Assembly: GCF_004342225.1 (NCBI RefSeq)
Contig: NZ_SMAR01000039.1
Span: 1 to 33,236 of the forward strand
DNA length: 33,236 bases
Direction: 5' to 3'
Source: Martelella mediterranea
Lineage (GTDB): Bacteria > Pseudomonadota > Alphaproteobacteria > Rhizobiales > Rhizobiaceae
The notes under the pieces were generated by a model. It did no database searches. It had not been told where the DNA came from and saw only the letters and a list, made by a program, of their open reading frames with translations. How positions within the stretch are numbered: the stretch's first letter is position 1; every line of letters begins with the position of its first letter. The position numbers were made by a program, and so were the translations under genes. This document shows positions 9,473-33,236 of this stretch, piece after piece.

Positions 9473-10774
9473 ATGATGCCGAAGCAATACCTGATCCCGG
9501 GAATGCGGATTCGCGACATTCTGCTGCCGGTTCCGTTGGACTGGAGCAAGCCTGATGGTCCTATCATTCAGTTGTTCGTGCGCGAAATTGTCGATCCGGT
9601 TCTGCGGCATAACAATCTGCCTGTGCTTTGCTTTCTGCAGGGCGGACCGGGAGGCAAAAATCCGCGTCCGGTCAATGGCGGTCCGTCATGGCTGGCTGAA
9701 GCACTGAAGACGCATCGCGTGATCATGATTGATCAGCGTGGAACCGGTCGCAGCAGTGCGGTCGATTCCACTGTTATGGCGCAGTTTGACGACGGGCAGG
9801 CCGGGGCAGATTACCTGATGCATTTTCGGGCCGACAGTATTGTCGCCGACTGCGAGCATGTGCGTAAAAACCTGCTCGGCGAAACGAAGAAATGGGAAAC
9901 ACTGGGTCAGAGTTTTGGCGGATTCATCACTCTGACCTATCTCTCCAAAGCACCGGAAGGGCTGTCGGCCTGCTATGTCACCGGGGGGCTTTCTGGTCTT
10001 TCGGCAACAGCGGATGACGTTTATCACCGGACATATCCGCGGGTCAGTGCCAAGAATGCGGCCTTTTACCGGCGCTATCCGCAGGATGCTGAACTGGCCG
10101 GACATCTGGCTGACCACCTGGAAAACAACGATATCCGCCTGCCCAACGGTGACAGGCTGACTGTGCGCCGTCTTCAGACAATCGGAATGAATTTCGGTAT
10201 GGGGCCGGGGTTTGAAGAGGTGCATTGGCTTTTGGATGAGGCCTTTGCGGACGCCGACCAGTCACGGCTTTCTGAAGGATTTCTGTCGGCCGTCATGGCC
10301 GAAACCGGTTTTGAGGGCCGTCCGTTGTTCGCTGCTATGCAGGAAAGTATTTATGCGCAGGGCAGGGGTGCGACAAGCTGGGCAGCGGAGCGTGTCCGGC
10401 AGGCGTTTCCAAAGTTCAGCCCCTCCAACCGTCCCCTGCTTTTCACTGGTGAGATGATCTACCCTTGGATGTTCGATGAGGTCAGAGCGTTGCGTCCGTT
10501 CAAATCGGCCGTCGACGTGTTGGCGCAACGGGATGACTTTCCTGCGCTTTACGACCCCACGCGCCTGTTTGCCAATGATGTGCCGGTTGCTGCGGCCGTT
10601 TATCATGACGACATGTATGTCGATGCCGGACTTTCACTTGAGACAGCCGGGCGCCTTGGAAACTGCCAGGCGTGGGTGACCAACGAGTTCGAACATGACG
10701 GCGTGCGCCAGAGCCCCGCGGTTTTCCGCCGCCTTCTTGGAATGGTTCGCGAGCGCGGCGGGGCGCTTGCCTAA
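9473..10774 (+). CDS. Alpha/beta hydrolase, prolyl aminopeptidase (proline iminopeptidase)-like
   Basis: Predicted cytoplasmic serine peptidase of family S33 that removes N-terminal proline from peptides. Typical marks of this family are visible: the oxyanion region QGGPGG (56-61), DQRGTGRS (87-94), and the nucleophile elbow GQSFGG with Ser147. A His in NEFEHDGVRQSP near the C-terminus is the likely catalytic base. The 433 residues match the longer bacterial proline iminopeptidases with an inserted cap domain. No signal peptide is seen. AGGAG at 9458-9462 lies 10 nt before the first of two adjacent ATGs (9473, 9476). It stands alone as a transcription unit, but a second peptidase for proline-containing peptides lies 4 kb downstream, so a shared role in peptide use is likely. 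Another S33 hydrolase specificity remains possible. Confidence 0.85.
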   Translation: MMPKQYLIPGMRIRDILLPVPLDWSKPDGPIIQLFVREIVDPVLRHNNLPVLCFLQGGPGGKNPRPVNGGPSWLAEALKTHRVIMIDQRGTGRSSAVDSTVMAQFDDGQAGADYLMHFRADSIVADCEHVRKNLLGETKKWETLGQSFGGFITLTYLSKAPEGLSACYVTGGLSGLSATADDVYHRTYPRVSAKNAAFYRRYPQDAELAGHLADHLENNDIRLPNGDRLTVRRLQTIGMNFGMGPGFEEVHWLLDEAFADADQSRLSEGFLSAVMAETGFEGRPLFAAMQESIYAQGRGATSWAAERVRQAFPKFSPSNRPLLFTGEMIYPWMFDEVRALRPFKSAVDVLAQRDDFPALYDPTRLFANDVPVAAAVYHDDMYVDAGLSLETAGRLGNCQAWVTNEFEHDGVRQSPAVFRRLLGMVRERGGALA

Positions 10775-10863
10775 TAAAACCTCTCTGAGCAGAGCTGTCT
10801 GTCGTTTCAAAGTCCAGGGTCGGATGACGTCTTATCATGTCTCTTTTTTGTCTGCACACATAG

Positions 10864-10873
10864 TGTCGACAAA
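10864..10873 (+). promoter_or_regulatory. Putative operator TGTCGACAAA, copy 1 (upstream of GH127 gene)
   Basis: TGTCGACAAA contains the 8-bp palindrome TGTCGACA (10864-10871). It lies about 82 bp before the GH127 start codon. The same 10-mer is found upstream of the DapA-like gene and the peptide ABC operon, which marks it as a probable binding site of one shared repressor or activator. Confidence 0.6.
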
Positions 10874-10954
10874 ATTTGTGCAGGCAGCTAATCTCCCGGT
10901 AAACAGGCTGGCCAGCTTCAAGTTCACGGGTCAGTCAAGCCGGGAGATATGGGA

Positions 10955-12877
10955 ATGACAAACAAGACGACCAAGAAACACTTGAGCCGCTTCAGGCCGG
11001 TTGATCACGCCGCTGTCGCCTTTGACGGCGGGTTCTGGAAGAGCTGGAAGGATACTGTCCGCACTGTCACGATCCCGACTCAGCACAAGCGCCTTGAAGA
11101 AGAAGGCTTTCTGGAGGTTCTCGATTTCGAAAAACCGCCCGGTCCGCTCGCACGTCCTATCCAGCCGAGCGGACTTTCGATGCAGCACTTCTTTGATTCT
11201 GATTTTGGCAAATGGATTGAGGCGGCCAGCTACACGCTGAAGCAAAACCCTGATGGGAAACTTGAAACGCAGATCGATGCGATCGTTGAGAAACTGGAGC
11301 AGGGCCAGATGGAAGATGGCTATCTTCACAGCTGGTTCATTCGCCGGGAGCCGGAGAACCGATGGACCAATTTGCGTGACCTCCATGAAATGTATTCCAT
11401 GGGGCACCTGCTGGAAGGTGCAATCGCCTATTTCGAAGCGACCGGAAAGCGGCGCTTTCTGGATGTGATGATCCGTGCGATGGATCACATTGCAGCGACC
11501 TTTGGGCGCGAAGGCGGCAAGTTGCGCGGCTATGGTGCTCATGCGGAGATCGAGCTTGCGCTGGTGAAGCTTTACCGTGTGACCGGTGAAGACCGGTTCT
11601 TAAAGCTTGGTACCTATCTGGTGGAGGAGCGCGGCCAGCAACCATCATATTACGATGAAGAGGCCCGCAAGCGCGGTGAAGATCCGGCTGACTATGTTTA
11701 CAAGACTTACGCCTATTCGCAGGCACATGCGCCGGTGCGCGAACAGCCGGATGTCGCCGGGCATGCCGTCCGGGCGATGTATTTCTACTGTGCTGTTGCT
11801 GATCTTGCCTACGAGAATGATGATCCGACACTGAAAGCGGTCTGCGATCGCTTCTTTGATGACCTGACGGGCGACAAGCTTTATGTCACTGGCGGTATCG
11901 GACCTTCGGCTGAGAACGAAGGCTTTACGCGCCCCTTCGATTTGCCCAATGAAAGCGCCTATGCTGAAACCTGTGCAGCTGTGTCACTGGGGTTCTGGAG
12001 CCACCGTATGGCTCAGATCGATCTTGATGCGCGTTATACCGATCAGCTGGAAACCGTTTTGTTCAACGGTGCATTGTCAGGTATTTCACGTGATGGCGAA
12101 CACTATTTCTATGAGAACGTTCTGGAAAGCCACGGTCAGAACCGCAGATGGAAATGGCATTATTGCCCCTGCTGCCCAACCAATATTGCCCGTTTCATCA
12201 CTTCGCTCGGGCAGTATTTTTATACGGTCAAAGACGACGCTGTAGCGGTTCACCTTTATGGAGAAAATGCAGCCGACCTGAATGTTGGCGAGACTTTCCT
12301 GCGGTTAAAGCAGTCGACTGCCTATCCGTGGGAGGGCGATATTGCGATTTCTCTGGGGCTGGAAGCGCCGTCAGAATTTACCCTCTTCCTGCGTGTTCCT
12401 GGCTGGTGTGAAGGTGCAGAAATTTCCGTCAATGGTGCGCCTGTCGATTTGGATACTGTTGTATCAAAAGGTTACGCCGCGCTCAAAAGGCATTGGCAAG
12501 ATGGCGACAGCATCCGGATTCATCTGCCGATGCCGGTCGAGCGTCTTTATGCCCATCCAGCTGTCAGTGCGAATGCCGGTCGTGTGTCGCTGAAACGCGG
12601 CCCCGTGGTCTACTGTGTCGAGGAGGCCGATATCGGCATCGAGCCCCAGCTTTTGCGTTTGCCGCGTGATGTTGCGCTTGAACCGCGTTTTGATGGCGAA
12701 TTTCTCGGCGGTGCAGTGCTTCTTGAAGCCAATGCACGTGCTGCTGAAATGTCCGGGCCGATCTATCGCAAGAAAGCAGCAAAAACGGCGGAAAAAGCGA
12801 TCACAGCGATTCCCTATCATCTCTGGGCAAACCGCGAAGCCGGTGGGATGCAGGTCTGGCTGGCTGAAGAAGTCTGA
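10955..12877 (+). CDS. Glycoside hydrolase family 127, beta-L-arabinofuranosidase
   Basis: Predicted to release L-arabinose from beta-L-arabinofuranosides, the linkage found on hydroxyproline of plant extensins. All residues known from Bifidobacterium HypBA1 can be placed. Numbering from 10949, the acid/base Glu is E324 (NEGF), the zinc ligands E340 and C342 lie in AETC, and the CPCCPTN motif carries nucleophile C408 and C409. The spacing of 16 residues between acid/base Glu and zinc Glu equals that of HypBA1 (322 and 338). An (alpha/alpha)6-barrel fills the first two thirds and beta-rich domains the rest. There is no signal peptide, so it should act inside the cell on imported glycosides. 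ATG at 10955 is preferred over 10949 because CGGGAG at 10941-10946 then has 8-nt spacing. The upstream region carries the shared operator. Confidence 0.93.
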   Translation: MTNKTTKKHLSRFRPVDHAAVAFDGGFWKSWKDTVRTVTIPTQHKRLEEEGFLEVLDFEKPPGPLARPIQPSGLSMQHFFDSDFGKWIEAASYTLKQNPDGKLETQIDAIVEKLEQGQMEDGYLHSWFIRREPENRWTNLRDLHEMYSMGHLLEGAIAYFEATGKRRFLDVMIRAMDHIAATFGREGGKLRGYGAHAEIELALVKLYRVTGEDRFLKLGTYLVEERGQQPSYYDEEARKRGEDPADYVYKTYAYSQAHAPVREQPDVAGHAVRAMYFYCAVADLAYENDDPTLKAVCDRFFDDLTGDKLYVTGGIGPSAENEGFTRPFDLPNESAYAETCAAVSLGFWSHRMAQIDLDARYTDQLETVLFNGALSGISRDGEHYFYENVLESHGQNRRWKWHYCPCCPTNIARFITSLGQYFYTVKDDAVAVHLYGENAADLNVGETFLRLKQSTAYPWEGDIAISLGLEAPSEFTLFLRVPGWCEGAEISVNGAPVDLDTVVSKGYAALKRHWQDGDSIRIHLPMPVERLYAHPAVSANAGRVSLKRGPVVYCVEEADIGIEPQLLRLPRDVALEPRFDGEFLGGAVLLEANARAAEMSGPIYRKKAAKTAEKAITAIPYHLWANREAGGMQVWLAEEV

Positions 12878-12939
12878 AACAAAAACGCCTGCGAATTGAG
12901 ATTCAGCAGGCGCGCTTCATACTTGCAGAATGATCAATG

Positions 12940-12975
12940 AAACACCCCGGACAAGGATTTTGTCCGGGGTGTTTG
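12940..12975. terminator. Shared hairpin terminator between GH127 and DapA-like genes
   Basis: A near-perfect 15-bp inverted repeat (12940-12954 with 12960-12974) with a 5-nt loop lies in the 104-bp gap between two convergent genes. The arm begins with AAAC and ends with GTTT, giving a short U-rich end in both directions. A weaker hairpin CGCCTGC/GCAGGCG lies just before it (12886-12892 with 12906-12912). Confidence 0.85.
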
Positions 12976-12981
12976 TTGTTA

Positions 12982-13941
12982 TCAGGCGGTTTCAGAGACG
13001 ACGCCCGGCTGTTTTTTCCATTCCGCATACCAGTCGCGGAACAGCGTGTATTGTGCTTCGAGATAGTTGCTCTGCGCTGGTGTCAGCGCATCTTCGGCGT
13101 TGAAATGCAGTTCATATTCCGGGCTGCCGGTCAGCACCATCAGCTTTTTATAGAACAGAACGAGGTCCGGACCTTCATCAAAGGTGGACAGAACGTGAAG
13201 CGCCTGATCCAGTTCCTGTGCCTTGACGCGGGCTTCCGTATTGCCAGCAGCGGCAAGCTTGCAAAGCGCGATAAGATGAAGCGCTTCTTTTGGAAGAGCA
13301 TTGCCGATGCCCGTGATGGCGCCGGTCGCGCCGCAGTTTACGAAGCCGTGGAACACCTGTGTGTCAACGCCGACCATCAGCGTTACATCATCGCTCTCAG
13401 ATGTGATGTTTTCAGCTGCATAGCGCAATGATGCGGCGCCACCGAATTCTTTGAAGCCGATGAGGTTTTTGTGCTCGGCACGCAGCGCAAAGAAAAGGTC
13501 TGCCTTGGTTTCAAAGCCATAATAGGGGCTATTGTAGATAACGGCGGGCAAATCAGGTGCGGCGGAAAGCACGGCCTTGAAATGCGCCTTCTGCGCCTGT
13601 GCCGACGAACCGCGGGAGAGAACGCGCGGGATTACCATCAAGCCCGAGGCGCCGACTTCACCAGCGTGCGCACCCAGCGAAACAGCGCTTTTTGAATTGA
13701 TCGCGCCGGTGCCAACAACGGTCGGAACGCCGGCAGCAACCAGACGCGCTACGCCTTCCTTGCGCTCGTCGTCTGTCAGAAGCGGCCAGTCGCCCATGGA
13801 GCCGCAATAGACAACGGCAGACATGCCTGCTGCGATCAGTTCTTTGCCCTTGGCAACAAGCGCATCAAAATCCGGTGTCCGGTCTGCTTTGCAAGGGGTC
13901 ATCAGGGCGGGCATACAGCCGGCGAAAATATTATCAGCCAT
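12982..13941 (-). CDS. DapA-family lyase, HypD-like (hydroxyproline pathway deaminase) or keto-deoxy-sugar-acid dehydratase
   Basis: Class I Schiff-base lyase of the dihydrodipicolinate synthase/N-acetylneuraminate lyase fold, 319 residues. Schiff-base Lys164 is in GFKEFGGA and Tyr136 in YNSPYYGF. The usual DapA GTTGE motif is replaced by CGSMGDWPLLT, so it is not a lysine-biosynthesis enzyme. From memory this variant resembles 1-pyrroline-4-hydroxy-2-carboxylate deaminase (HypD) of bacterial trans-4-hydroxyproline catabolism, which yields 2-oxoglutarate semialdehyde. An L-2-keto-3-deoxyarabonate dehydratase, which gives the same product from L-arabinose, is the main alternative. Both fit a neighbour that frees arabinose from hydroxyproline. 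AAAGGA precedes the ATG by 6 nt. Its promoter region carries the perfect copy of the shared palindrome. Confidence 0.8.
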   Translation of the reverse strand: MADNIFAGCMPALMTPCKADRTPDFDALVAKGKELIAAGMSAVVYCGSMGDWPLLTDDERKEGVARLVAAGVPTVVGTGAINSKSAVSLGAHAGEVGASGLMVIPRVLSRGSSAQAQKAHFKAVLSAAPDLPAVIYNSPYYGFETKADLFFALRAEHKNLIGFKEFGGAASLRYAAENITSESDDVTLMVGVDTQVFHGFVNCGATGAITGIGNALPKEALHLIALCKLAAAGNTEARVKAQELDQALHVLSTFDEGPDLVLFYKKLMVLTGSPEYELHFNAEDALTPAQSNYLEAQYTLFRDWYAEWKKQPGVVSETA

Positions 13942-14144
13942 TTGTTTTCCTTTGGTCTTCCACCGATCAGGTGTTGAGAGGTTGATATTGGTTTCGGTGC
14001 GAAAAATGGCGGATCCAGTTTTTTATGCGGTGTTCGCGAAACTGCTGCATTTTTCAAAACTTCGATCACTTGAAAGCCTATTGGCTGCGTGACTTGCGCT
14101 CCTGTCGTGCGTGCCTCAATCAGTTTTTAATCATAAAAATACTC

Positions 14145-14156
14145 TTTGTCGACAAA
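14145..14156. promoter_or_regulatory. Putative operator TTTGTCGACAAA, copy 2 (perfect palindrome)
   Basis: A perfect 12-bp palindrome TTTGTCGACAAA lies about 200 bp upstream of the DapA-like start codon. It shares TGTCGACAAA with copies upstream of the GH127 gene and the ABC operon. This is the most symmetrical copy and probably the closest to the consensus. Confidence 0.65.
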
Positions 14157-14220
14157 CAAAATACAAAACATAACACCAATTTCTCTCCCTGAGTTCTTCC
14201 GCCGCTCATTATGATTCAGC

Positions 14221-14321
14221 TAGAGCGCCGTGCATCCATTCGGATGCACAAAGGACGCTCTACCCTATTGAATCTACGCATCGTGCTTTCCGAAAATCGA
14301 CTCCGATTTTCGGGCCGATGC
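14221..14321. repeat. Bipartite hairpin intergenic repeat
   Basis: Two adjacent compound hairpins. The first has outer arms TAGAGCG (14221-14227) and CGCTCTA (14256-14262) and an inner perfect stem GTGCATCC/GGATGCAC (14230-14237 with 14242-14249). The second has outer arms GCATCG/CGATGC (14278-14283 with 14316-14321) and an inner perfect 10-bp stem CCGAAAATCG/CGATTTTCGG (14290-14299 with 14304-14313). It resembles palindromic intergenic repeats scattered in Brucella/Ochrobactrum genomes (from memory). It lies 29 bp beyond the 3' end of the aminopeptidase gene, where it may also stop or stabilise that transcript. Confidence 0.75.
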
Positions 14322-14350
14322 TGTAAGTCAGGCGTGAGAGCCTTTGCCAT

Positions 14351-16141
14351 TCAAAGAGCCTGCGTTGAACGCATCAGAAAATCGCGGGCTTCATCGCTGA
14401 TGAGCGGGGCCAGCTTCGCTCTCACTTCAGCGTGGTAATCGTTGATGAAGGTGATTTCTTCACGTGACAGCGCGTCAACGTCGACCGCTTTGAGGTCGAT
14501 CGGAGCGAGCGTCAGCGAGCTGAACCGGCAAAACCCCGGAGCTGTTCTGACCACTTCCACCTGATTTTCCACCCTGAGCCCATAGGTGTCAGCTTCATAG
14601 TAGCCCGGTTCGATGGTCATGATGATGCCGGGCTCAAAACCGTAGGAATTGGCTTTCTTGGAAAAGCGATGCGGGTATTCGTGAACGAGCAGATTGTGCC
14701 CGACGCCGTGGCCGGTTCCGTGGTCGTAGTCGAGCCCAAGCTGCCAAAGGGGAAGCCGGGCAAGTGCGTCGAGCTGATGACCGCATGTTCCATCGGGAAA
14801 CTGCGCCGAAATGAGCGCGATAAAGCCGTTCAGAACCGCCGTATAGCTCCGGCGTATAGGTTCGTCGGGGACCGACAGGAACAGGGTTCGGGTAACGTCT
14901 GTTGTGCCATTTTCATACTGTCCACCTGAATCAATCAGGTAAGGTCCTGCGGGTGTGACGGGCGCGTTACTTTCAGACGTCGCACCGTAATGGCACATGG
15001 CCGCATTGGCGCCGGAGGCCGAGATTGAGCGGAAGCTGGCCTCCAGAAAACCTTTGCGTTTTGATCGGAAAAACAGAAGTTTTTCTTCCGCCTCGATTTC
15101 ACGGATCGGGTCTCCACTGGCCGCACGGGGGGGAGCTTCAGTTTCGAGCCAGGCCAGAAACTCAGTCAATGCGATGCCATCTTCCAGATGGCAATCGCGG
15201 TAACCCTGAAGTTCGGCAGGCGTTTTCCGGGACTTTGCAATTGTCAGCGGATTATCCGTAGCAACTGCTGTCCCTCCGGCTTTTTCGACCGCCAGTCTCA
15301 GGGCAGTCGGGGCAAATGACTGATCGATCATGACTTTCTTGCCGGCTGCATTCTGTGCAACGGTTGCAACAAAATCCTGCGGAGCCAGAATGTTGACATC
15401 TTCCAGTTCAAAATCTGAAAGGTCGTTTGGCAGTTTTCGCGCATCGACAAACCAGTCAACGCTGCCATCAGACTTCAGTATCATGAAGGATTGCGGGACT
15501 GGGTTCATGGCAATATCGCTGCCGCGCAGATTAAGCAGCCAGGCAATGTTATCCGGTAGTGTCTCCGCCAGCATATCAGCGCCGGATGCGGCAAGGTTTG
15601 CACCCATCCGTGCTGTTTTGGCAGCAACACTTTCACCGGAAAGGGCCGCAGACATTGGCCGGACTTGACCAATCGGCTTTGCCGGCCGGTCTGTCCATAT
15701 TTCATCGAAGAAATCGCGTTCAACCGGTACCAGTGTGAGCCCGGATTTATCTGCAGCTGAAGCAAGCCGGTCATAGAGCGCGATATCGATCAGCATCGGG
15801 TCAAAGCCGATCCGCCAGCCTGCCTGGCCATGGGTTGCAAGCCATTGGTCCAGCGGGTCATTGTTGAGGTGATGGACCGCGTAGAGAGCCGGATCGACCT
15901 CGTGACGTACCTGAATCTCATACCGCCCATCGACAAAGATCAGCGCCTTTTCTGGCATCACGAAAGCCAGACCAGCCGAGCCGGAAAAGCCGGTGATAAA
16001 TGCCAGCCGGTCGTCGTGCGGGGCGGCAACTTCGCTTTGGTGTGCATCCGCACGCGGAATGATAAATCCGTTCAGGTGGTCGGCCTTCAAGAGTCGCCGC
16101 AGCGCTGAAACGCGCGACCGGATATCGGGATTTGCAGTCAT
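14351..16141 (-). CDS. Xaa-Pro aminopeptidase (aminopeptidase P, family M24B)
   Basis: Metallopeptidase that removes the N-terminal residue before proline. It has 596 residues in the three-domain layout of long aminopeptidase P: two creatinase-like N-terminal domains (about 1-310) and a pita-bread catalytic domain (about 315-540). The five dinuclear metal ligands are all present: D404 (DSGG), D415 (TDVTR), H478 (GTGHGVGH), E511 (TIEPG) and E525 (VENQ). A C-terminal extension of about 60 residues is usual for this class. No signal peptide, so cytoplasmic. It is the last gene of the peptide ABC operon, 18 bp after the permease gene, which suggests that proline- or hydroxyproline-containing peptides are the transported substrate. 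Confidence 0.95.
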   Translation of the reverse strand: MTANPDIRSRVSALRRLLKADHLNGFIIPRADAHQSEVAAPHDDRLAFITGFSGSAGLAFVMPEKALIFVDGRYEIQVRHEVDPALYAVHHLNNDPLDQWLATHGQAGWRIGFDPMLIDIALYDRLASAADKSGLTLVPVERDFFDEIWTDRPAKPIGQVRPMSAALSGESVAAKTARMGANLAASGADMLAETLPDNIAWLLNLRGSDIAMNPVPQSFMILKSDGSVDWFVDARKLPNDLSDFELEDVNILAPQDFVATVAQNAAGKKVMIDQSFAPTALRLAVEKAGGTAVATDNPLTIAKSRKTPAELQGYRDCHLEDGIALTEFLAWLETEAPPRAASGDPIREIEAEEKLLFFRSKRKGFLEASFRSISASGANAAMCHYGATSESNAPVTPAGPYLIDSGGQYENGTTDVTRTLFLSVPDEPIRRSYTAVLNGFIALISAQFPDGTCGHQLDALARLPLWQLGLDYDHGTGHGVGHNLLVHEYPHRFSKKANSYGFEPGIIMTIEPGYYEADTYGLRVENQVEVVRTAPGFCRFSSLTLAPIDLKAVDVDALSREEITFINDYHAEVRAKLAPLISDEARDFLMRSTQAL

Positions 16142-16159
16142 AAAGTTTTCCTTGCCAGG

Positions 16160-17119
16160 TCAGGCACCACGTACGCGCGGATCCAGAACAGCGTAAAGAA
16201 GATCGACAATGATGTTGGTAATAACGATGAAAAAGCCGCCCATCAGTACAATTCCGATGATCACCGGCCGGTCCAGATTACGCACCGACTGAACGGCCAG
16301 TGCGCCAACACCTTGCAGACCATAAATCTGTTCAATCACAATCACGCCACCCAGAAGAAGCGCAATGTCGGCGCCCAGCTGGGTGATCAGCGGTGTCAGC
16401 GTCGCGCGCAGACCATGCTTGTAGACCACTTTTGCCTCGGAAAGTCCTTTCGCGCGGGCGGTGCGGATATAGTCTTCTCCTAACACCTCGATGAGCTTGC
16501 CGCGGGTCAGGCGGGCATAAATGGCGGCTGTCACCAGAGCCAGTGTCGTCCAGGGCAGGAAGAGGTGCCAGGCCCAGGTAACCGGGTCAGCCAGGAATGG
16601 TTTATATCCGCCGGGCGGGAACAGCATGAACCCGGCTTTGCGCGGCAAAAAGTAAAAGACGTAAAGCGATAACATGCCGAGCACGAATGTTGGAAACGAT
16701 AGCCCCAGCAGGATAAAGCCTTGTCCCAGCCGGTCGCGAAAGCCACCGGGAAAGCGCGCCGACATGATGCCGATGGGGATGCCGAGCGCCAGCCAGAAGA
16801 CCACACCACCGATAACCAGCGATATGGTGGCTGGAAGGCGTCGCACGATCAGCTCTGTAACCGGCTGTTGGTTTCGGTATGAAAAGCCGAGATCGCCCGT
16901 TGCAGCCTTGGAGATGAACTTGCCGTACTGCACATAGATCGGCTGGTCGAGGCCAAGGTTTGAACGAATTTGTTCAAGCTGGGTCTCTGTTGCCTTGTCT
17001 CCGGCAATCATGCGGGCTGGATCACCCGGCGCAATGAAGAACAGGACAAAGACAAAAATACTCAGTGAAAACAGGATCAGCGCCGCAAATCCGATACGCT
17101 GGACAAGATAGCGGATCAT
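16160..17119 (-). CDS. Peptide-type ABC transporter permease (DppB/OppB family)
   Basis: Inner-membrane channel subunit of a cluster-5 (dipeptide/oligopeptide/nickel) importer, 319 residues. It has the typical N-terminal RYLVQRIGFAALILFSLSIFVF helix, a large periplasmic loop with IRSNLGLDQP, and several further membrane segments. The cytoplasmic coupling loop IRTARAKGLSEAKVVYKHGLR carries the EAA-type motif that contacts the ATPase. The ATG overlaps the stop of the second permease gene by one base (TAATG), with AAGGAGG just upstream, so the two are translationally coupled. Confidence 0.95.
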   Translation of the reverse strand: MIRYLVQRIGFAALILFSLSIFVFVLFFIAPGDPARMIAGDKATETQLEQIRSNLGLDQPIYVQYGKFISKAATGDLGFSYRNQQPVTELIVRRLPATISLVIGGVVFWLALGIPIGIMSARFPGGFRDRLGQGFILLGLSFPTFVLGMLSLYVFYFLPRKAGFMLFPPGGYKPFLADPVTWAWHLFLPWTTLALVTAAIYARLTRGKLIEVLGEDYIRTARAKGLSEAKVVYKHGLRATLTPLITQLGADIALLLGGVIVIEQIYGLQGVGALAVQSVRNLDRPVIIGIVLMGGFFIVITNIIVDLLYAVLDPRVRGA

Positions 17120-18093
17120 TAGCGTGCCTCCTTTTTAAGGCGTTTCAGAAGTGACTTGCGAACCGGCCGCGCTTTCGGATCAAGGGCGTCACGCAGGCCG
17201 TCGCCTAAAATGTTGAAGGCCAGCGTCGTCAGAAGCAGGGCGAGGCCGGGGAATACGACCAGCCACCAAGCCACAAGGTAGATCGAGTTGGCTGAGGCAT
17301 CGGCAAGCATTCCGCCCCAGCTGGGCGTTGGCGGCACGATCCCGAGTCCGAGAAAGGAAAGCGTGGCTTCGAAAACGATCGCAGTCGGGATCATCATCGT
17401 TGTGTAAACGATGATCGGGACAGAGAGATTGGGCAGAATATCGCGCAGGATAATCGATACCGGTCCTGCGCCAAGCGAACGGCTCGCAGCCACGAACTCG
17501 CGGCGGCGCAGCGAGGTGACTTCTGCCCGGATAACGCGCCCCATCGTGGTCCAGGAAAAGAATACGATTACGCCGATACTCAAAGACAGGCTGGGTCCGA
17601 AAACCGAAACCAGCGCCAGTGCGCAAAGCAGGAACGGAACGCTCATCACCAGATCCATGATCCGGCTTAAAACCATATCGGTCTTGCCTCCGGCATAACC
17701 GGAAATTGTGCCGATGGTGATGCCGATCATGGCAGCTGCCAGCGAAGCGACAACGCCAACAATCAATGAGATGCGTGCGCCATAGGCAAGACGAACCAAC
17801 ACATCGCGCCCCAGATGGTCCGCACCCAGCCAGAAATTATGATCCGGGCCAACAGGAAGCCCCATCGGGCTCATGCCGATCTTGCGGTATTGCTCAATTG
17901 CCGTGTGTCCCGTGATATCGGCAACCAGTGGCGCACCGATTGCAAAGGCAACGAGAAAAACAATGAAGCAGGCCGCGACGAGGCTGGCGCGATCCCGCAC
18001 AAGCCGCCTGACAGTCAACTCCAGCGGACCGCGCTGGACGACCGCCCCGTTTTCTTCGTCATTTTCCAAGTGGTTCTGGGTGACAGCACTCAT
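17119..18093 (-). CDS. Peptide-type ABC transporter permease (DppC/OppC family)
   Basis: Second channel subunit, 324 residues, with the OppC-type N-terminal leader, a membrane helix near residues 35-60, and an extracellular segment containing FWLGADHLGRDVLVRLAYGA, a hallmark of DppC/OppC proteins. The EAA-type coupling motif is in FVAASRSLGAGPVSIILRDI. The start overlaps the ATPase gene stop by four bases (ATGA), indicating translational coupling within the operon. Confidence 0.95.
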   Translation of the reverse strand: MSAVTQNHLENDEENGAVVQRGPLELTVRRLVRDRASLVAACFIVFLVAFAIGAPLVADITGHTAIEQYRKIGMSPMGLPVGPDHNFWLGADHLGRDVLVRLAYGARISLIVGVVASLAAAMIGITIGTISGYAGGKTDMVLSRIMDLVMSVPFLLCALALVSVFGPSLSLSIGVIVFFSWTTMGRVIRAEVTSLRRREFVAASRSLGAGPVSIILRDILPNLSVPIIVYTTMMIPTAIVFEATLSFLGLGIVPPTPSWGGMLADASANSIYLVAWWLVVFPGLALLLTTLAFNILGDGLRDALDPKARPVRKSLLKRLKKEAR

Positions 18094-19955
18094 GCGGCTT
18101 CTCCTCCAATGCTCTCAATCAATCGCCGCTTTGGTGGCGCGTCCGTCGTGATGTCATGCATGGAGGCGGCCATCAGCTCACGCGTGTAGGGATCCCTGGG
18201 CCGCGCATAGATGTTTTCTGCGGTATCAAGCTCGACGATCTGGCCCTTGTTCATCACGGCGATCCGGTCGCAGACATGGCGAACAACGGAAAGATCGTGG
18301 GAGATGAACAGATATGTCAGGCCCATATCCTCCTGAAGGTGCCGCATAAGATTGAGAATTTGCGCCTGGATAGAGACATCAAGAGCGGAAACCGGCTCAT
18401 CGAAAATGATGATGTCGGGATGAAGTGCCAGCGCACGGGCAATGCCGATGCGCTGCCGCTGCCCACCGGAAAACTCCGAGGGATAGCGGTTATAGTGTTC
18501 CGGATTCAGGCCAACGCGTTCCATCAGCTCCTGCACCTTGCGCTTTCGTTCAGCACCGGCACAGATTTTGTGAATGCGGAAGGGGTCGCCAATAATCGAA
18601 CTGACACGGCGGCGCGGGTTCAGCGAGCCGAAAGGATCCTGAAATACGAGCTGAATGCGCTTGCGCATGGCGCGCCAGTCCGAATGGGTGAGGGTATCAA
18701 GCATCTGCCCTTCCACCACAACATCACCGGAACTTGCCGGAACGAGGCCTGCCAGAACACGGGCCAGTGTCGACTTGCCGCAACCCGACTCGCCAACGAG
18801 GCCAAGCGTTTCCCCCTTGTAGAGCGTCAGATCGATGCCTTTGAGGACATGAAGCGCCTTGGGCGCACCTTTCATTCCGCCGCCGGTTTCATAGCTGAGG
18901 TGAACATTGACCGCTTCAATCATCCTTTGGCGGTGCGTTTGCCCTTCGGAAGCACCGGTCGAAGAATATTCAGCCGGCGCAGCGCCCTCAGGCGCAAGGT
19001 CTTCTGTTTCCTGCCAGCACAGCGCCGCGGTTCCGTCATCGAAAACTCTGAGTGGCGGTGTCTTGGCGCAGACATCCATCGCTTTTGTGCAGCGCGGGCG
19101 AAAGACGCAGCCTTTTGGCGGCGCAAGCAGGCTTGGTGGCCGGCCGGAAATCGGCTCAATCATCGTGCCGGGTGTGTACTTGGCCGGAGAAGAGTTCAGA
19201 AGGCCAGTGGTGTAGGGGTGAACCGGCGCGGAGAAAAGCGTTTTTGCCGGTCCAAGTTCCATCCGGTTTCCGGCATACATCACCATCACCTTTTCGGCGA
19301 TGGATGACAGCAGCGAAAGGTCATGAGTGATCATGATGACGGTGGTGCCGCGTTCGCGGCGCATCTCGTCAAGGAGTTCGATAATCTGCGCCTGAACGGT
19401 TACGTCCAGCGCCGTTGTCGGCTCATCTGCAATGATCAATGGCGGGTTCAGGATCAGCGCCATCGCGATCATGACGCGCTGGCGCATGCCGCCGGAGAAC
19501 TGATGCGGATAATCATCAAACCGGTGTTCCGCATCGCGGATTCCCACGCGCTCCAGCATTTCGACAACGCGAGCGCGGGCCTGTTTGTCACTGACCTTTT
19601 CATGCGTGTGGATCATCTCGGCAATTTGCGTGCCGATGGTATAATAGGGATGCAGGCTGGAAAGCGGATCCTGAAAGATCATGCCGATCCGCGCACCGCG
19701 AAGTGCGCGTAGGCGTCGTCTGTCCAGCTTCAGCAGGTCTTCGTCTTCGAAGGTCACCGTACCGGTGATTTCGGCATTGGGCAGAAAGCCCATAATGGCC
19801 TGCGTCAAAACGCTCTTTCCCGAGCCGGATTCACCGGCAATGCCAAACAGCGAACCTTTTTCGACGCTGAAAGACACTTTGTTGGCGGCATGAACAATAC
19901 CGTCTTCGGTCGGAATTTCGACGGTCAGGTCGCGCACGTCGAGAATGGATGTCAA
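18090..19955 (-). CDS. Fused double ATPase of a peptide-type ABC transporter (DppD-DppF fusion)
   Basis: Energy-coupling subunit with two complete ABC domains in 621 residues, replacing the separate DppD and DppF. Domain 1 (about 1-260) has Walker A GESGSGKS, signature FSGGMRQRV and Walker [13 protein letters not shown], followed by the oligopeptide-transporter C-terminal Cys-containing region (RCTKAMDVC) that may bind an iron-sulfur cluster in some homologues. Domain 2 (about 345-600) has [17 protein letters not shown] and [12 protein letters not shown]. All catalytic motifs look intact in both. The likely start is TTG (19953-19955), with GGAGAAAG about 8 nt upstream and no suitable ATG nearby. 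A hairpin-rich 107-bp gap separates it from the binding-protein gene. Confidence 0.95.
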
Positions 19956-19982
19956 AGAACTTTCTCCATAACGGAACTGGAA

Positions 19983-20050
19983 TCAGACGGAAATTGCGCC
20001 GTCTGATGATGCCATTTGAGGCCCGGCGGAGGGGGCGCCGGGCCGTCTGA
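19983..20050 (-). other. Hairpin cluster between binding-protein and ATPase genes
   Basis: TCAGACGG/CCGTCTGA (19983-19990 with 19999-20006) and the GC-rich stem GGCCCGGCG/CGCCGGGCC (20020-20028 with 20036-20044) lie in the 107-bp intercistronic gap. CCGTCTGA occurs a second time at 20043-20050, so alternative pairings are possible. Such structures usually protect the upstream binding-protein mRNA or attenuate read-through, giving more binding protein than membrane subunits. No T run marks a full terminator. Confidence 0.7.
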
Positions 20051-20062
20051 CCGATTGGCGGC

Positions 20063-21805
20063 TTAGCGGCTCAGCCAGACATTGGTCCAGTCGCCCTGGG
20101 CACCCAGTGCGTAGGGTTCAAAGTTTTCAACGGCGGGGCCGTGATAGAGAATCACATTCTCTGTCGTGTAAGGCACAACGGGCGAATCCTTCATCACCAT
20201 CTCGTCAACCTGGCCCCAAAGTTTTGCCGCCTGTTCCGGTGTGGTTGCGTTGATCGCTTCTTTCGCAATCTTGTTTGCCTCCGGGTTGTTGTAGTCGACA
20301 TAGTTATAGGTCTGGTGGGTGCCGTTATAGGTAAACTGCGGCTGGAAAACCGAGCGCGCAGCGCCACCGACCCAGTCAGGAGACCATCCCACCGGCGCGA
20401 TATCCCAGAGGCCAGCCTTGGTGTTTTCCTGATTGGTCATGAACTTCGAATAGTAGTCCGAAGGCGCGACAGGTGTCAGCTCCAGATTGATGCCGGCCTT
20501 TTTCAGACTGGCCTGAATGGTCTGGGCGATAGCCGGTTCGGCATTCTGGTTACGGAAGGGCATTTTAAGCGTAATTCCGTCAGGATATCCGGCCTCAGCA
20601 AGAAGCTCTTTCGCTTTTTCCGGATCGCCGGAAGCGTTGTCTGTCGGGTACAGATCAAACTCATGGAAGCCGAGAACGCCGGGGCCGAAAATGCCGTTCT
20701 GCGGTGCAGCGACCATGGGGCCGCCCATCTGCTGAACAATGGCTGCCTTGTCGATGGCATACTGAACTGCCTGACGAATTTTCAGATCCCGCAGCGCCCC
20801 GTCATTGTTATCTGTCAGCGTGTTGAACCAGAGGAAGGATGTGCGGCCAACGGACATTGTGACCAGCTTGTCATCACCGGTCGCCGTCAGCATCTGCAGG
20901 ATCGCCGGCGGGATCAGGATATCATAGGTCATATCGGCGTCACCGGCCTGAAGCTGTTGAATGGCGGCATCCGGCTGAATACCGAAGGTGATGTTGATGT
21001 TATCAACGTAGCCGCTGCGTAGCGGATCGGAGTCACTGTTCCAGGCGGGATTGCGCGTCAGCTTGATCGTGCTGTCCGGGATATAAGTTTCAGGCGTATA
21101 GGGGCCCGAAGCGATGAAGTTTTCGCGATAATCCGGGCCGTCCGGCATATAGTCGAGCACTTCGACAGGGGCCGGGGCTGAGGTTGGAAGCGACAGCATG
21201 TAGACAAAGTCACCGGCCTTTTCCGTCAGGTTGATGACGATGGTCTTGTCATCCGGCGTTTCGATACCGGAGATGTCGTTGTTCTGGATATATTCCTTCA
21301 TCGCAGCAGCGGTTGGCTCAACTTGTGCAAAACCGTCGCAGAAGCTGCGCATGCCTTCGATGAGGTCGACATAATAGGTCAGGGCAGCTGAACCGAGGAA
21401 CGGGTTGCACATGCGTTTCATGCCGCGCTCAAAATCGGCGGAAACGATCGGACGTGCGCCGTCCGGCGCGTTCCATGCAACCCCATCGCGCAGGGTGAAG
21501 GTGTAGGTCAGGCCATCATTGGTCGGCTGGGGGACTTCGGTCGCCAGATCGCCTTTCGGCTGAAGCCGTGCATCATCATCCATCGACGCTTCATAACTGA
21601 TCAGCTGGCGGCTGATAGCGCGCAGGAAGTTGTTCGACGTAACAAGCGCGGCGGAGGTCGGATCGAAATGGTCGATATCAGCGGTTCCGACGATTTTCAG
21701 CGTTCCGCCCATTTGCGGTGTTGCCGCCAGTGCCGCTGTGGCGGTGGAAGCGGCAAGCAGTGAAGCGGCAAGTCTGAGTAGGTTCTTTCCGTTGAGTGCA
21801 GTCAT
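20063..21805 (-). CDS. Peptide-type ABC transporter substrate-binding protein (SBP_bac_5)
   Basis: Periplasmic solute-binding protein of the family-5 extracellular binding proteins (PF00496), about 580 residues. It has a Sec signal peptide of about 28 residues ending in TAALA, then the usual N-terminal lobe start GGTLKIVGTADIDHFDP. Family signatures include LTYTFTLRDGVAWNAPDG, a TEKAGDFVY segment and DLKIRQAVQYAIDKAAIVQQM. The start is placed at 21805 because AAAGGGAA lies upstream and the hydrophobic leader follows at once; an upstream in-frame start at 21880 would add an unlikely 25 residues. It is the first gene of the operon. Peptide, glycopeptide or arabinoside ligands cannot be told apart from sequence; the operon partner aminopeptidase P and the shared operator favour proline/hydroxyproline-rich peptides. 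Confidence 0.95.
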   Translation of the reverse strand: MTALNGKNLLRLAASLLAASTATAALAATPQMGGTLKIVGTADIDHFDPTSAALVTSNNFLRAISRQLISYEASMDDDARLQPKGDLATEVPQPTNDGLTYTFTLRDGVAWNAPDGARPIVSADFERGMKRMCNPFLGSAALTYYVDLIEGMRSFCDGFAQVEPTAAAMKEYIQNNDISGIETPDDKTIVINLTEKAGDFVYMLSLPTSAPAPVEVLDYMPDGPDYRENFIASGPYTPETYIPDSTIKLTRNPAWNSDSDPLRSGYVDNINITFGIQPDAAIQQLQAGDADMTYDILIPPAILQMLTATGDDKLVTMSVGRTSFLWFNTLTDNNDGALRDLKIRQAVQYAIDKAAIVQQMGGPMVAAPQNGIFGPGVLGFHEFDLYPTDNASGDPEKAKELLAEAGYPDGITLKMPFRNQNAEPAIAQTIQASLKKAGINLELTPVAPSDYYSKFMTNQENTKAGLWDIAPVGWSPDWVGGAARSVFQPQFTYNGTHQTYNYVDYNNPEANKIAKEAINATTPEQAAKLWGQVDEMVMKDSPVVPYTTENVILYHGPAVENFEPYALGAQGDWTNVWLSR

Positions 21806-21896
21806 GGAACTGTTCCCTTTCGTTATCGCGACATGTTTGATGCCGGTCAGTTTCCAGGGACAATTTTTGCGATTGTTCAATCTATGTCAACGATTA

Positions 21897-21906
21897 TGTC
21901 GACAAA
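21897..21906. promoter_or_regulatory. Putative operator TGTCGACAAA, copy 3 (upstream of peptide ABC operon)
   Basis: TGTCGACAAA with the palindrome TGTCGACA (21897-21904) lies about 92 bp before the binding-protein start. Related half-sites flank it on both sides (ATGTCAAC at 21884-21891, GACGACAAA at 21909-21917). On the gene strand TTGACA at 21884-21889 could be the -35 box, which would place the operator just upstream of the promoter. Confidence 0.6.
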
Positions 21907-22010
21907 CTGACGACAAAGTTTGATGCGGGCAGAGATAACGCCCCGAAAAGGTGGTGTTTCCGGGCAATGCTCTGCTGTAAAAAAAAGAGGGTCTGGCTTA
22001 TTGTCCGCCC

Positions 22011-26680: not shown

Positions 26681-27639
26681 AGACAAACCGGATCGGCCGC
26701 ACGGCCGTGGACGTCACCGAAGTCTCCTTCGGTTGCGCCAGCGTCGGCAACCTCTATCGGGAGATTACCGACGACGATGCCAGGGCTGTGCTGGAAACGG
26801 CCTGGAGGGGCGGGATCCGCTATTTCGACACCGCGCCGCATTATGGCCGGGGGCTTTCGGAAATGCGGCTCGGGCGTTTTTTCGAAGGGCGTACCGGATA
26901 TGCGGTGTCGACCAAGGTCGGCCGTATTCTCTCCCCGGCGGCGGAGCCCATCGCGGAAGTGGACGGTTTCGTGAAGCCGGCGCAAAACGATGTGCACTAC
27001 GACTATTCCGGCGATGGTATCGAGGAAAGCCTCGAGCAGAGTTTTCAGCGGCTTGGCCGCACCCATATCGATATCGTCTATGTGCACGATATCGGCGAAT
27101 ATACGCACGGTTCCGGTAATGCGGCGCATATGGAGGATTTCCTCGGCTCCGGCTATGAGCGTCTTGTCCGGCTGAAGGAGGCCGGCCGGATCGGGGCTTT
27201 CGGGCTGGGGGTGAACGAGTGTCAGGTCTGCCTCGATGTGATGGATCACGGGCCGATCGATGTCATCCTTCTGGCGGGCCGGTTGACGCTGCTCGACCGT
27301 TCGGCCGAGGCGGAACTCGTTCCCCGCTGCCGCAAGACGGAAACCAGCCTCGTGCTCGGCGGCATCTTCAACTCGGGCATCCTTGCGACCGGTCCGGTCG
27401 ATGGCGCGACCTACGATTACGGGCCGGCGCCGCAGGCGGTGCTGGATCAGGTGGCTGCGCTGCAGACAGAGGCGGAACGGCTTGGACTGACCCTGCCGAC
27501 GGCCGCGCTGCAGTTTGCAAAGCGCCACCCGGCATCGGCCTCGGTTCTGATCGGCACGGCCAAACCCGCTACGCTTTCGCGAAATCTTGAGGCATTGCAG
27601 GCCGACATACCCGCTGAGGCAGACCGTCTTCTAGGCTAG
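26677..27639 (+). CDS. Aldo-keto reductase, D-threo-aldose 1-dehydrogenase (L-fucose dehydrogenase)-like
   Basis: NAD(P)-dependent oxidoreductase with the AKR (alpha/beta)8 barrel, 320 residues. The catalytic tetrad is complete: D51 and Y56 in YFDTAPHYG, K80 in STKVGR and H137 in VYVHDIGEY. The HDIGEYTHG segment and overall order match the D-threo-aldose 1-dehydrogenase / pyridoxal 4-dehydrogenase branch, whose members oxidise L-fucose, D-arabinose or related sugars to lactones. The start is GTG at 26677, overlapping the previous stop (GTGA), with AAGGAGGAAG upstream. It overlaps the convergent GntR gene by 9 bp at its 3' end. Confidence 0.85.
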   Translation: MKTNRIGRTAVDVTEVSFGCASVGNLYREITDDDARAVLETAWRGGIRYFDTAPHYGRGLSEMRLGRFFEGRTGYAVSTKVGRILSPAAEPIAEVDGFVKPAQNDVHYDYSGDGIEESLEQSFQRLGRTHIDIVYVHDIGEYTHGSGNAAHMEDFLGSGYERLVRLKEAGRIGAFGLGVNECQVCLDVMDHGPIDVILLAGRLTLLDRSAEAELVPRCRKTETSLVLGGIFNSGILATGPVDGATYDYGPAPQAVLDQVAALQTEAERLGLTLPTAALQFAKRHPASASVLIGTAKPATLSRNLEALQADIPAEADRLLG

Positions 27640-28533
27640 TTCGTGGTCGCGGAGCGACGACAGAAGCGTCGTCTTGGAGGTGCGCAGATGGCGTGAGGCC
27701 GCATCGCGGGCCGCGGCGGCGTCGCGTCTTTCAAGCGCGTCGATGATCGCCAGATGCTCGCCGATTGCGGCGGCGTTGCGGGCCTTTTCATCGGTCTTGT
27801 CCCACATGTAGTGATAATGGAAGATGAGCGATATGACCTTCTGAAACTCCTCGACGAAGCGGTTCTTGACGATCGAATTGATGGCGGCATGGAAGGCTTC
27901 GTCGAGCTTGGAAAATTCGTGATAATCCGTCTCGATGCTCTGCTGAAGCGCGATATGGGCTGTCCGCAATGCGGCGAGCCTGGCCCAGATGGGATGGTCG
28001 ACGGGTGCCTCGACGGCCTGGTTCACGGCATTGAGTTCCAGGATCGAACGGAAGTCCGACAGCTCCACCGCGAACTCCATCGTGAAGCCACGGAGCGTCC
28101 AGCCGCCTTTTTTGCGGCGGGCCACAAGGCCGAAGCGGCTGAGGCCGGCCAGAAATTCCTTGATCTCATGCTGGGGCACGCCGAAGGTCCGCGAAAGATC
28201 GGCCACCGACAAGGGCGTGTCGGCCGGGACATCGAAGCGCAGGATCCAGTCGAGAAAGCGCTGTTCGAGATCGTCGCTCGGTATGTCCGGCTGCGCGATC
28301 TTGATGCGGTCGGCATCGACCGGCTTGCGCAGCATGTGCTTTTCCCGCCCCTCCCACGAAATCAGACCTTGCTCCTGCATCCGGCTCAGGCAACGCCGCA
28401 CCACCGTCCGGCTGACGTCGGCAACTTCGCTTAAACTGGTTTCGGCCGGGATTGCCGCACCGACCGGCCATGTCTCGCAATAATCGAGCAGTCGGTTATA
28501 TGCCGTTCTGAAGCGGGTGTCGCTTCTTGCCAT
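27631..28533 (-). CDS. GntR-family (FCD-type) regulator with an apparent second winged-helix domain
   Basis: Predicted repressor of the surrounding sugar genes, 300 residues. The first winged helix lies near residues 8-70 (PAETSLSEVADVSRTVVRRCLSRM, then QGLISWEG). A second, similar segment follows at about 88-150 (PLSVADLSRTFGVPQHEIKEFLAGLSRFGLV and a KKGG wing). The C-terminal FCD effector domain (about 150-300) has DEAFHAAI, HYHYMWDKT and HLAIIDALERRD, with the His/Asp residues that bind metal and ligand in this family. One winged helix is normal, so the total is longer than usual FadR/FCD proteins (about 230). ATG at 28533 has GGGGAT upstream. It is divergent from the ABC operon across a 133-bp region with two candidate operators. 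Confidence 0.9.
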   Translation of the reverse strand: MARSDTRFRTAYNRLLDYCETWPVGAAIPAETSLSEVADVSRTVVRRCLSRMQEQGLISWEGREKHMLRKPVDADRIKIAQPDIPSDDLEQRFLDWILRFDVPADTPLSVADLSRTFGVPQHEIKEFLAGLSRFGLVARRKKGGWTLRGFTMEFAVELSDFRSILELNAVNQAVEAPVDHPIWARLAALRTAHIALQQSIETDYHEFSKLDEAFHAAINSIVKNRFVEEFQKVISLIFHYHYMWDKTDEKARNAAAIGEHLAIIDALERRDAAAARDAASRHLRTSKTTLLSSLRDHELA

Positions 28534-28575
28534 TGCTTTTATCCCCACGAATCGCGCCGTCAGTTCACAATATGA

Positions 28576-28589
28576 TAGTACTAAATTAT
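28576..28589 (+). promoter_or_regulatory. Candidate GntR operator, copy B
   Basis: TAGTACTAAATTAT starts with the 8-bp palindrome TAGTACTA. It matches copy C (28626-28639) at 12 of 14 positions and starts exactly 50 bp upstream of it, close to five helical turns. It lies upstream of the probable -35 box of the ABC operon. Confidence 0.6.
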
Positions 28590-28598
28590 AAAAAACAA

Positions 28599-28627
28599 TT
28601 GACGCGCATCAAGTACACCGTTATCTG
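28599..28627 (+). promoter_or_regulatory. Probable promoter of the sugar ABC operon
   Basis: TTGACG at 28599-28604 and TATCTG at 28622-28627 are separated by 17 bp, a sigma-70 type arrangement. The two candidate operators flank it, one upstream and one over the start region, as expected for repression. Confidence 0.5.
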
Positions 28628-28639
28628 GTATTAAATTAT
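28626..28639 (+). promoter_or_regulatory. Candidate GntR operator, copy C
   Basis: TGGTATTAAATTAT repeats copy B with two changes. It overlaps the end of the -10 box and the expected transcription start of the ABC operon, 27 bp before the permease start codon. Confidence 0.6.
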
Positions 28640-28666
28640 TACGTACAGAACGAGGGAGGAGACCTC

Positions 28667-32606: not shown

Positions 32607-32809
32607 GACGTTACTGGCGAACCGCTTTGACGTCCGAGATCGCCTGGAGATAGCCGACCCATCGCATCGGCATTCTCCTCCGTCATGGCCCAGTCGGCTC
32701 GAAGCTGTGTTTTTGGTCAACTCGAAGAACGTTGTGGGAACATATCCTGCGGGATTGATCTGCGAAGCGCCCGCTCGTGACATTGAGCTCCGATTTAAGG
32801 AGTGTGTTG
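32607..32809. other. Intergenic stretch before the transposase fragment
   Basis: About 200 bp without a credible gene. The outer end of the Tn3-like element should lie here, but I could not recognise a 38-bp Tn3-type terminal repeat by eye. Confidence 0.4.
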
Positions 32810-33080
32810 ATGAGTATCGGTATTTCAAGTTCGGATTTTGTCGGCCAATGGAGCCTGAGCTTCGCCGACATTGAGTTCATCAATTCCAAACCGGCTGCTA
32901 CCAAGCTCGGCCTGGCCGCTCAGTTGAAGTTTTTCAACGCTCGCGGTTTTTTCGCTGACAATGATACATTGATCCCGAACAATGCGGGCGAATATCTGGC
33001 TGTGCAGATCGGCGTCCGAGCCGACACGCTATCCGGCTATGATTTCGGTGGGAGAAGTGCCCGACGGGATTGCGCCGAGA
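32810..33080 (+). pseudogene. N-terminal fragment of a Tn3-family transposase (DUF4158 region)
   Basis: About 90 residues match the start of Tn3-family TnpA proteins, the DUF4158 region: DFVGQWSLSFADIEFINSKPAATKLGLAAQLKFF, then NNAGEYLAVQIGV and YDFGGRSARRDCAEI. A complete TnpA has nearly 1000 residues. Family character stops near 33080; the same frame stays open to 33169 but its residues look random. AAGGAG at 32797-32802 is 7 nt before the ATG. It is a dead remnant, cut short by deletion and a second insertion just to its right. Confidence 0.65.
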
Positions 33081-33144
33081 TTTTCCTGACATCAGCGTCG
33101 TCATCGGCAGCCTTCCGATCGCGGGCTTTCAGCGGCCGGGGCTC

Positions 33145-33236
33145 AGAGTCTGTTCAAGAAAGCGGATAGCGGGCGAGCCGCCTTGTCATGAGCTTGATCA
33201 TCGCGGTCTGGATGAAGGCGAGGCTTGTTGCCGAGA
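33145..33236 (-). mobile_element. End of an IS5-like insertion sequence (runs off the window)
   Basis: From about 33145 (GAGTCTGTTCAAG) the sequence resembles IS5-family (IS1031/IS427-type) ends, and the preceding TCA (33142-33144) fits their 3-bp TNA target duplication. On the minus strand a partial reading frame enters from the window edge and stops at 33154, giving LAFIQTAMIKLMTRRLARY near its end, which looks like an IS5-type transposase C-terminus. Only about 90 bp are visible, so the family call is tentative. Confidence 0.45.
33154..33236 (-). CDS. Partial transposase C-terminus, IS5-like
   Basis: The frame contains 26 complete codons before the TGA at 33156-33154 and continues beyond the window. 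The helical, Arg-rich ending is typical of IS transposases that stop some ten bases before the element's terminal repeat. Identification is by resemblance only. Confidence 0.4.
   Translation of the reverse strand, partial: SATSLAFIQTAMIKLMTRRLARYPLS

Follow-up and report, generated by a model that had tools for sequence, protein, structure and literature searches.

Predicted HypR-type operators upstream of arabinofuranosidase, HypD-like and peptide import genes in Martelella mediterranea

Which regulator reads a site that recurs upstream of three separate transcription units in Martelella mediterranea? The site, the 10-mer TGTCGACAAA, lies in a stretch of 33,236 nucleotides (RefSeq assembly GCF_004342225.1, contig NZ_SMAR01000039.1, positions 1 to 33,236; hereafter the window), which forms contig C39 of a draft genome of 4.30 Mb. 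It precedes genes for a GH127 beta-L-arabinofuranosidase-like hydrolase, for a DapA-like protein, and for a peptide ATP-binding cassette (ABC) transporter with its solute-binding protein (SBP) and an aminopeptidase. Judging from sequence comparison, the sites are probably operators of a HypR-type repressor of the GntR/FCD family encoded on contig C22, and the three units would belong to a HypR regulon that has expanded to serve the use of hydroxyproline-rich glycoprotein. We favour this reading because the core is common to the upstream regions of the C22 regulator gene and an M24 peptidase gene, to hypR loci of relatives, and to close orthologues of the window units.

Position and frequency of the repeated site

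Exact matches to TGTCGACAAA were found at 10864-10873, 14147-14156 and 21897-21906, all on the plus strand and at no other place in the window. A further match on the minus strand (14145-14154) overlaps the second inside the palindrome TTTGTCGACAAA. Both the three places and the palindrome agree with the sequence-only reading, an earlier annotation of this DNA which had proposed one palindromic operator upstream of three units, a local regulon under a shared regulator encoded elsewhere. Dinucleotide shuffles of the window gave a mean of 0.01 matches, and none of 100 shuffles reached four. Searched in the window with up to two mismatches, a looser 12-mer was unremarkable (4 matches against 1.58 expected, with 11 shuffles reaching 4). 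The Rfam search of the window returned zero matches.

The first predicted operator (10853-10873) consists of the core at 10862-10873 and the flank TGCACACATAG, and its exact match is placed about 75 bp upstream of the GH127 ATG (10949). The second (14145-14168) combines the palindrome TTTGTCGACAAA with a half-site, ATACAAA, 11 bp further on, about 200 bp upstream of the ATG of the DapA-like gene (13941). The third (21885-21917) includes the core at 21895-21906, the half-site CGACAAA at 21911-21917 and TTGACA on the minus strand at 21885-21890, about 90 bp upstream of the likely SBP ATG at 21805. Each copy is thus upstream of its own unit, as had been proposed; the operator, however, exceeds the palindrome, with an extra half-site nearby. 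A single shared transcript was rejected, since GH127 is read in the other direction from the DapA-like and peptide ABC units, and every unit has a site of its own. Between the aminopeptidase gene and site 2, inverted-repeat-like runs at 14219-14335 resemble, by eye, a rhizobial intergenic repeat element.

Genome-wide, the 10-mer has 19 strand matches at 18 distinct places, and the reversed-word control has 11 strand matches. Thirteen of the 18 places lie in likely genes; a Pfam check of ten of these thirteen open reading frames (ORFs) gave a clear family for eight, weak matches for one and none for another. On contigs C56 and C57, two near-identical stretches carry the 10-mer within an ORF (L017:1397 and L018:1501), a repeated gene. 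The other five places are the three of the window and two on contig C22, and all five stand in front of units concerned with hydroxyproline, peptides or arabinosides. Short or antisense ORFs (61-136 aa) run across four of these places; judging from the neighbouring genes, we took them as spurious. With one mismatch allowed, the 12-mer occurs at 16 places, compared with 23 for its control.

Counts of this kind are what chance copies of a word containing GTCGAC might give. Nevertheless, the genome-wide density of the 10-mer predicts only 0.14 matches in the window (Poisson P of three or more = 4e-4), all three sites are placed upstream of a unit, and they are kept in orthologous promoters that are otherwise poorly conserved; chance is hardly credible as their origin. 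The in-gene copies and the control-word counts indicate that position, not the bare core, is specific. The warning in the sequence-only reading, that the regulon fails if the motif is equally common inside genes, applies in part, to the bare core alone; position and conservation carry the case.

The candidate regulator and its operator

Contig C22 (locus L035) holds a hydroxyproline-catabolism cluster with two copies of the site. One is 98 bp upstream of a GntR/FCD gene (G000:C22:32384-33139; PF00392 and PF07729), which is followed by a DAO-type flavoprotein gene. The other precedes an M24 peptidase gene, followed by genes for 4-hydroxyproline epimerase (NCBIfam 538 bits, cut-off 376) and an aldehyde dehydrogenase. 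Of the hydroxyproline enzymes, the epimerase is assigned by NCBIfam, and the flavoprotein, aldehyde dehydrogenase and DapA-like protein by homology. Window site 1 agrees with the site of the C22 GntR gene at 21 of 22 bases, TGCACACATA(G/A)TGTCGACAAAA. By sequence, the C22 protein is a HypR relative, 58% identical to the product of a Ciceribacter gene that adjoins the DapA-like gene. A shared operator with a regulator encoded elsewhere is well supported, and this is the GntR-type gene with the same site that the earlier reading had suggested looking for. The regulon is not only local, however, since its core is on another contig. Divergent from the hypR-like gene and with a common operator region, a MetNIQ-like ABC operon (L035:7127-9721, minus strand) is a candidate importer of the regulon.

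Another regulator of the same genome might read the sites, with the match to hypR loci being indirect. The genome has 17 matches to the HypR query at E <= 1e-3, and the window itself contains a second GntR/FCD gene (27631-28548, minus strand). However, the best match is 58% identical to the query and the next 35%, and the core is tied to hypR in relatives. The in-window gene was set aside as the regulator; it adjoins a sugar cluster, and its upstream region (28549-28650) is AT-rich and the HypR core was not found there. We regard this alternative as very unlikely. The in-window gene encodes two GntR-type helix-turn-helix stretches (Pfam) before the FCD domain, and its neighbours are sugar-ABC and dehydrogenase genes.

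In the core TTGTCGACAA, GT and AC are 2 nt apart, the spacing given for HypR sites in the part of PMC4494728 available to us; the same source places additional half-sites of GntR-family sites 7-12 nt from the centre. Many hypD and hypR promoters, window site 2 included, have a TTTGTAT box 11 bp from the core. On the opposite side of the core, TGAACACA or TGCACACA is found at GH127 of Martelella and at its gene for HypR-II, our name for the sister subtype of HypR to which the C22 regulator belongs.

Conservation of the sites and the HypR-II subtype

Among 121 family genomes, five gave an SBP match (E <= 1e-150) and 40 a HypR homologue (E <= 1e-60); the five with SBP have both. The hypR loci of 30 of the 40 genomes were read, from the genome under study and 29 relatives. 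A nine-letter core was found at 20 of the 29 relatives' loci compared with 1 of 16 loci of other GntR matches of the studied genome (Fisher 4.6e-5). With a matrix from 27 sites of the relatives' hypR loci (training minimum 13.3), the five non-genic sites of the studied genome score 16.2-17.4. The three window places rank as the top three in the window (17.0, 16.3 and 16.2; next 9.2), and 0.9% of 980 control windows of 400 bp reach 16. Three neighbours line up in Ciceribacter and Rhizobium sp. ACO-34A: the peptide operon, a GntR gene and the DapA-like gene; sites precede SBP and the DapA-like gene. Similarly, the core precedes a HypR-like gene and the DapA homologue on pSymB of Sinorhizobium medicae.

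In a tree of 38 proteins, the C22 regulator falls in a 12-member subfamily (support 100/99) that is separate from the type of S. medicae and Ciceribacter. Membership in HypR-II was assigned by at least 70% identity and is tree-based for part of the genomes only. The sequence SRTP(I/V)REAL in the DNA-binding domain is identical across the 26 HypR proteins, of both types, that were aligned. Both types are present in M. mediterranea, Ciceribacter, G281, G322 and G359. HypR-II is the only type found in the genome under study, G388 and G227, where the site of the DapA-like gene is retained; a search next to the DapA-like gene of the window found no canonical hypR remnant. On two Rhizobium plasmids (L062:10978-11889 and L063:12944-13855), the HypR-II gene is divergent from another DapA-family gene, with CTGTCGACAAG between them; that DapA-family protein is about 28% identical to the one of the window and perhaps serves another pathway step.

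The sequence-only reading had proposed looking for conservation of the three sites, and they are kept upstream of close orthologues of all three units. All 11 close orthologues of the DapA-like gene that were read (73-100% identity) have the core 102-209 bp upstream. For SBP, all ten orthologues of at least 75% identity have it (the gene of the window, L036-L040, L061, G050, G359 and G368, L036 and G359 being probably one species). TTGT, the core and TTGACA are conspicuously conserved in an alignment of eight of these ten promoters; TTGACA may serve as a -35 box or as a third half-site. One SBP copy (L181, G359:C2:162378-164186), 88% identical, has two in-frame TGA codons and an intact operator.

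Of 394 family genomes, 18 have a close GH127 orthologue (E <= 1e-250), and a HypR homologue is present in all 18, compared with 154 of the 394 overall; 12 of the 18 have HypR-II by identity. The GH127 gene of relatives shares an operon with a sugar ABC transporter, next to a LacI gene. In the promoter region of this operon, TGTCGACA was found in all 15 HypR-II genomes (those 12 together with M. mediterranea, M. radicis and Agrobacterium sp. AGB01, with G359 close to M. mediterranea) versus 2 of 6 with only canonical HypR (Fisher P = 0.0025, a value that ignores kinship). The two are G166 and G368, and the four that lack it are G023, G050, G102 and G285. In the genome under study, TGTCGACA stands directly before GH127. 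The rule that GH127 has the site only where HypR-II is present, set in advance for ten genomes, was right in eight and wrong in two, with predicted presences holding in seven of seven. In G050 and G368 the neighbour of the GH127 operon is the peptide operon, and in G388 it is the DapA-like gene; in G285 a prolyl-peptidase-like hydrolase gene follows the GH127 operon. These neighbours support one common job.

The adjoining LacI-type regulator might read the GH127 site, leaving sites 2 and 3 to HypR. The site of the relatives does sit in the LacI/sugar-SBP promoter region, and it is also present in two of the six genomes without HypR-II. However, LacI is present in all close GH127 operons of relatives that were read, yet four of them, all without HypR-II, have no site. 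Moreover, the genome under study lacks a close LacI orthologue (best 51%, beside an SBP only 39% identical), and its GH127 site is an almost exact match to the one before the regulator gene. Reading by LacI is therefore unlikely in our estimation, and the shared regulator of the earlier reading is supported for all three units, with LacI as a possible reader at GH127.

Several observations weigh against HypR as the reader of these sites. The bare core is frequent inside genes, as counted above for the 10-mer; each of ten additional TTGTCGACAA places is inside an ORF of 136 aa or more, and two in-gene copies (L009 and L012) reach a matrix score of 17.4, level with the operators, so the core matrix was rejected as the sole criterion of specificity. 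Nine of the 29 relatives' hypR loci have no nine-letter core. Upstream of HypR-II genes, TGTCGACA is present within 400 bp in 13 of 21 and absent in eight; by sequence, HypR-II autoregulation is not universal. The site is missing from all seven SBP orthologues of 61-66% identity (G075, G108, G051, G295, G320, G385 and G386; 500 bp examined), though those checked have hypR. The predicted absence of the GH127 site held in one of three genomes and failed in G166 and G368. The HypR motif of Streptomyces coelicolor in the consulted part of PMC6608401, CTNTGC(A/C)ATGTCAC, differs from the operator described here. Finally, the genomes are kin to one another, so the survey counts are not independent.

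Predicted use of hydroxyproline-rich glycoprotein

The GH127 gene (10949-12877, plus strand) encodes a protein matching PF07944 (2.4e-96), with all of the catalytic, middle and C-terminal domains present. Its closest solved relative is 4qjy, labelled GH127 beta-L-arabinofuranosidase (2.2e-180), and the NCBIfam aceric acid hydrolase model gave 395.7 bits, under its cut-off of 950. The YAETC and CPCC motifs align with solved relatives, and we take them to contain the zinc and nucleophile residues. The DapA-family protein (12982-13941, minus strand; PF00701) is by homology a candidate HypD (pyrroline-4-hydroxy-2-carboxylate deaminase), 73-75% identical to the products of hypR-adjacent genes of S. 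medicae, Ciceribacter and Rhizobium ACO-34A. The third unit (14351-21805, minus strand) is one operon, encoding a family 5 SBP (20063-21805; PF00496, 9.1e-68), a DppD/F-like double ATPase (18090-19955), Opp/Dpp-type permeases C (17119-18093) and B (16160-17119), and an M24 Xaa-Pro aminopeptidase (14351-16141; 3ctz, Xaa-Pro aminopeptidase 1, 3.3e-105). The ATPase and permeases were assigned by Pfam and NCBIfam profile matches. The listed SBP ORF begins at TTG, 21880, and the sequence and the starts of relatives favour 21805; SBP is 88% identical to that of M. mediterranea and 91% to that of M. radicis.

Upstream of GH127, the window encodes a prolyl-aminopeptidase-like alpha/beta hydrolase (9473-10774, plus strand; closest solved relative 8jgn/8jgm, AT3g61540, 1e-111), linked to the system by neighbourhood. 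Its gene is inside the peptide operon in Agrobacterium AGB01, Ciceribacter and G050, and ends the GH127 operon in G285; none of the top 15 matrix matches of the window lies upstream of it. Close to the contig end, a DUF4158 stretch (32777-33169) could, we presume, be a transposase fragment.

By analogy with published HypR biology, a HypR dimer on TTGTCGACAA, aided by the extra half-site, would block transcription without hydroxyproline, and hydroxyproline or its epimer would free the DNA of HypR. GH127 would then take off beta-L-arabinofuranose, the Opp-type system would bring in proline- and hydroxyproline-rich peptides, and the Xaa-Pro aminopeptidase and other peptidases would cleave them. 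Hydroxyproline would be converted to alpha-ketoglutarate via 4-hydroxyproline epimerase, the D-amino-acid-dehydrogenase-like flavoprotein, the DapA-like HypD and the aldehyde dehydrogenase. Because of this enzyme set, the likely food is a plant hydroxyproline-rich glycoprotein such as extensin.

Parts of such a regulon are already published. According to the portions seen of PMC5343134 (Leyn et al. 2016), HypR of Sinorhizobium meliloti belongs to the GntR family and regulates hyp genes negatively, hydroxyproline being the inducer; HypR is often autoregulated, and in some gammaproteobacteria it also controls proline peptidases, a peptide permease and collagenases. The proteobacterial regulon has in common with ours a GntR-family HypR, hyp enzymes and, in some gammaproteobacteria, peptidases and peptide transport. 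Unlike it, the regulon proposed here has the GH127 arabinofuranosidase and the Opp-type importer under the site, and a paralogous subtype as regulator; the words extensin and plant had zero matches in the text of PMC5343134 at hand. HypR of S. coelicolor, described in the consulted part of PMC6608401 as a repressor of the GntR/FadR type acting on hydroxyproline genes and on a collagenase gene, is a GntR-type repressor like our candidate, but that part names no arabinofuranosidase. The beta-L-arabinooligosaccharide system of Bifidobacterium longum (PMC7263609, PMC10850190) also combines GH127 with an ABC importer, for sugars of plant hydroxyproline-rich glycoproteins, whereas the parts of both papers that were seen mention neither hydroxyproline catabolism nor HypR. 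The arabinofuranosidase and peptide-import branch of the HypR regulon and HypR-II were not found in the open-access literature searched.

We tentatively propose, at somewhat less than even confidence, that the duplicated HypR-II is a master switch for feeding on plant hydroxyproline-rich glycoprotein, with a single operator governing sugar trimming, the import of peptides or glycopeptides, prolyl peptidases and the oxidation of hydroxyproline, and that it replaced canonical hypR at the operator of the DapA-like hypD in the genome under study, G388 and G227. This would hint at a repressor paralogue supplanting its sister with the operators retained. The proposed regulon ties hydroxyproline catabolism in plant-associated Rhizobiales, in a testable way, to a sugar hydrolase and a peptide importer, and offers these bacteria a possible route for living on extensin-type cell-wall protein.

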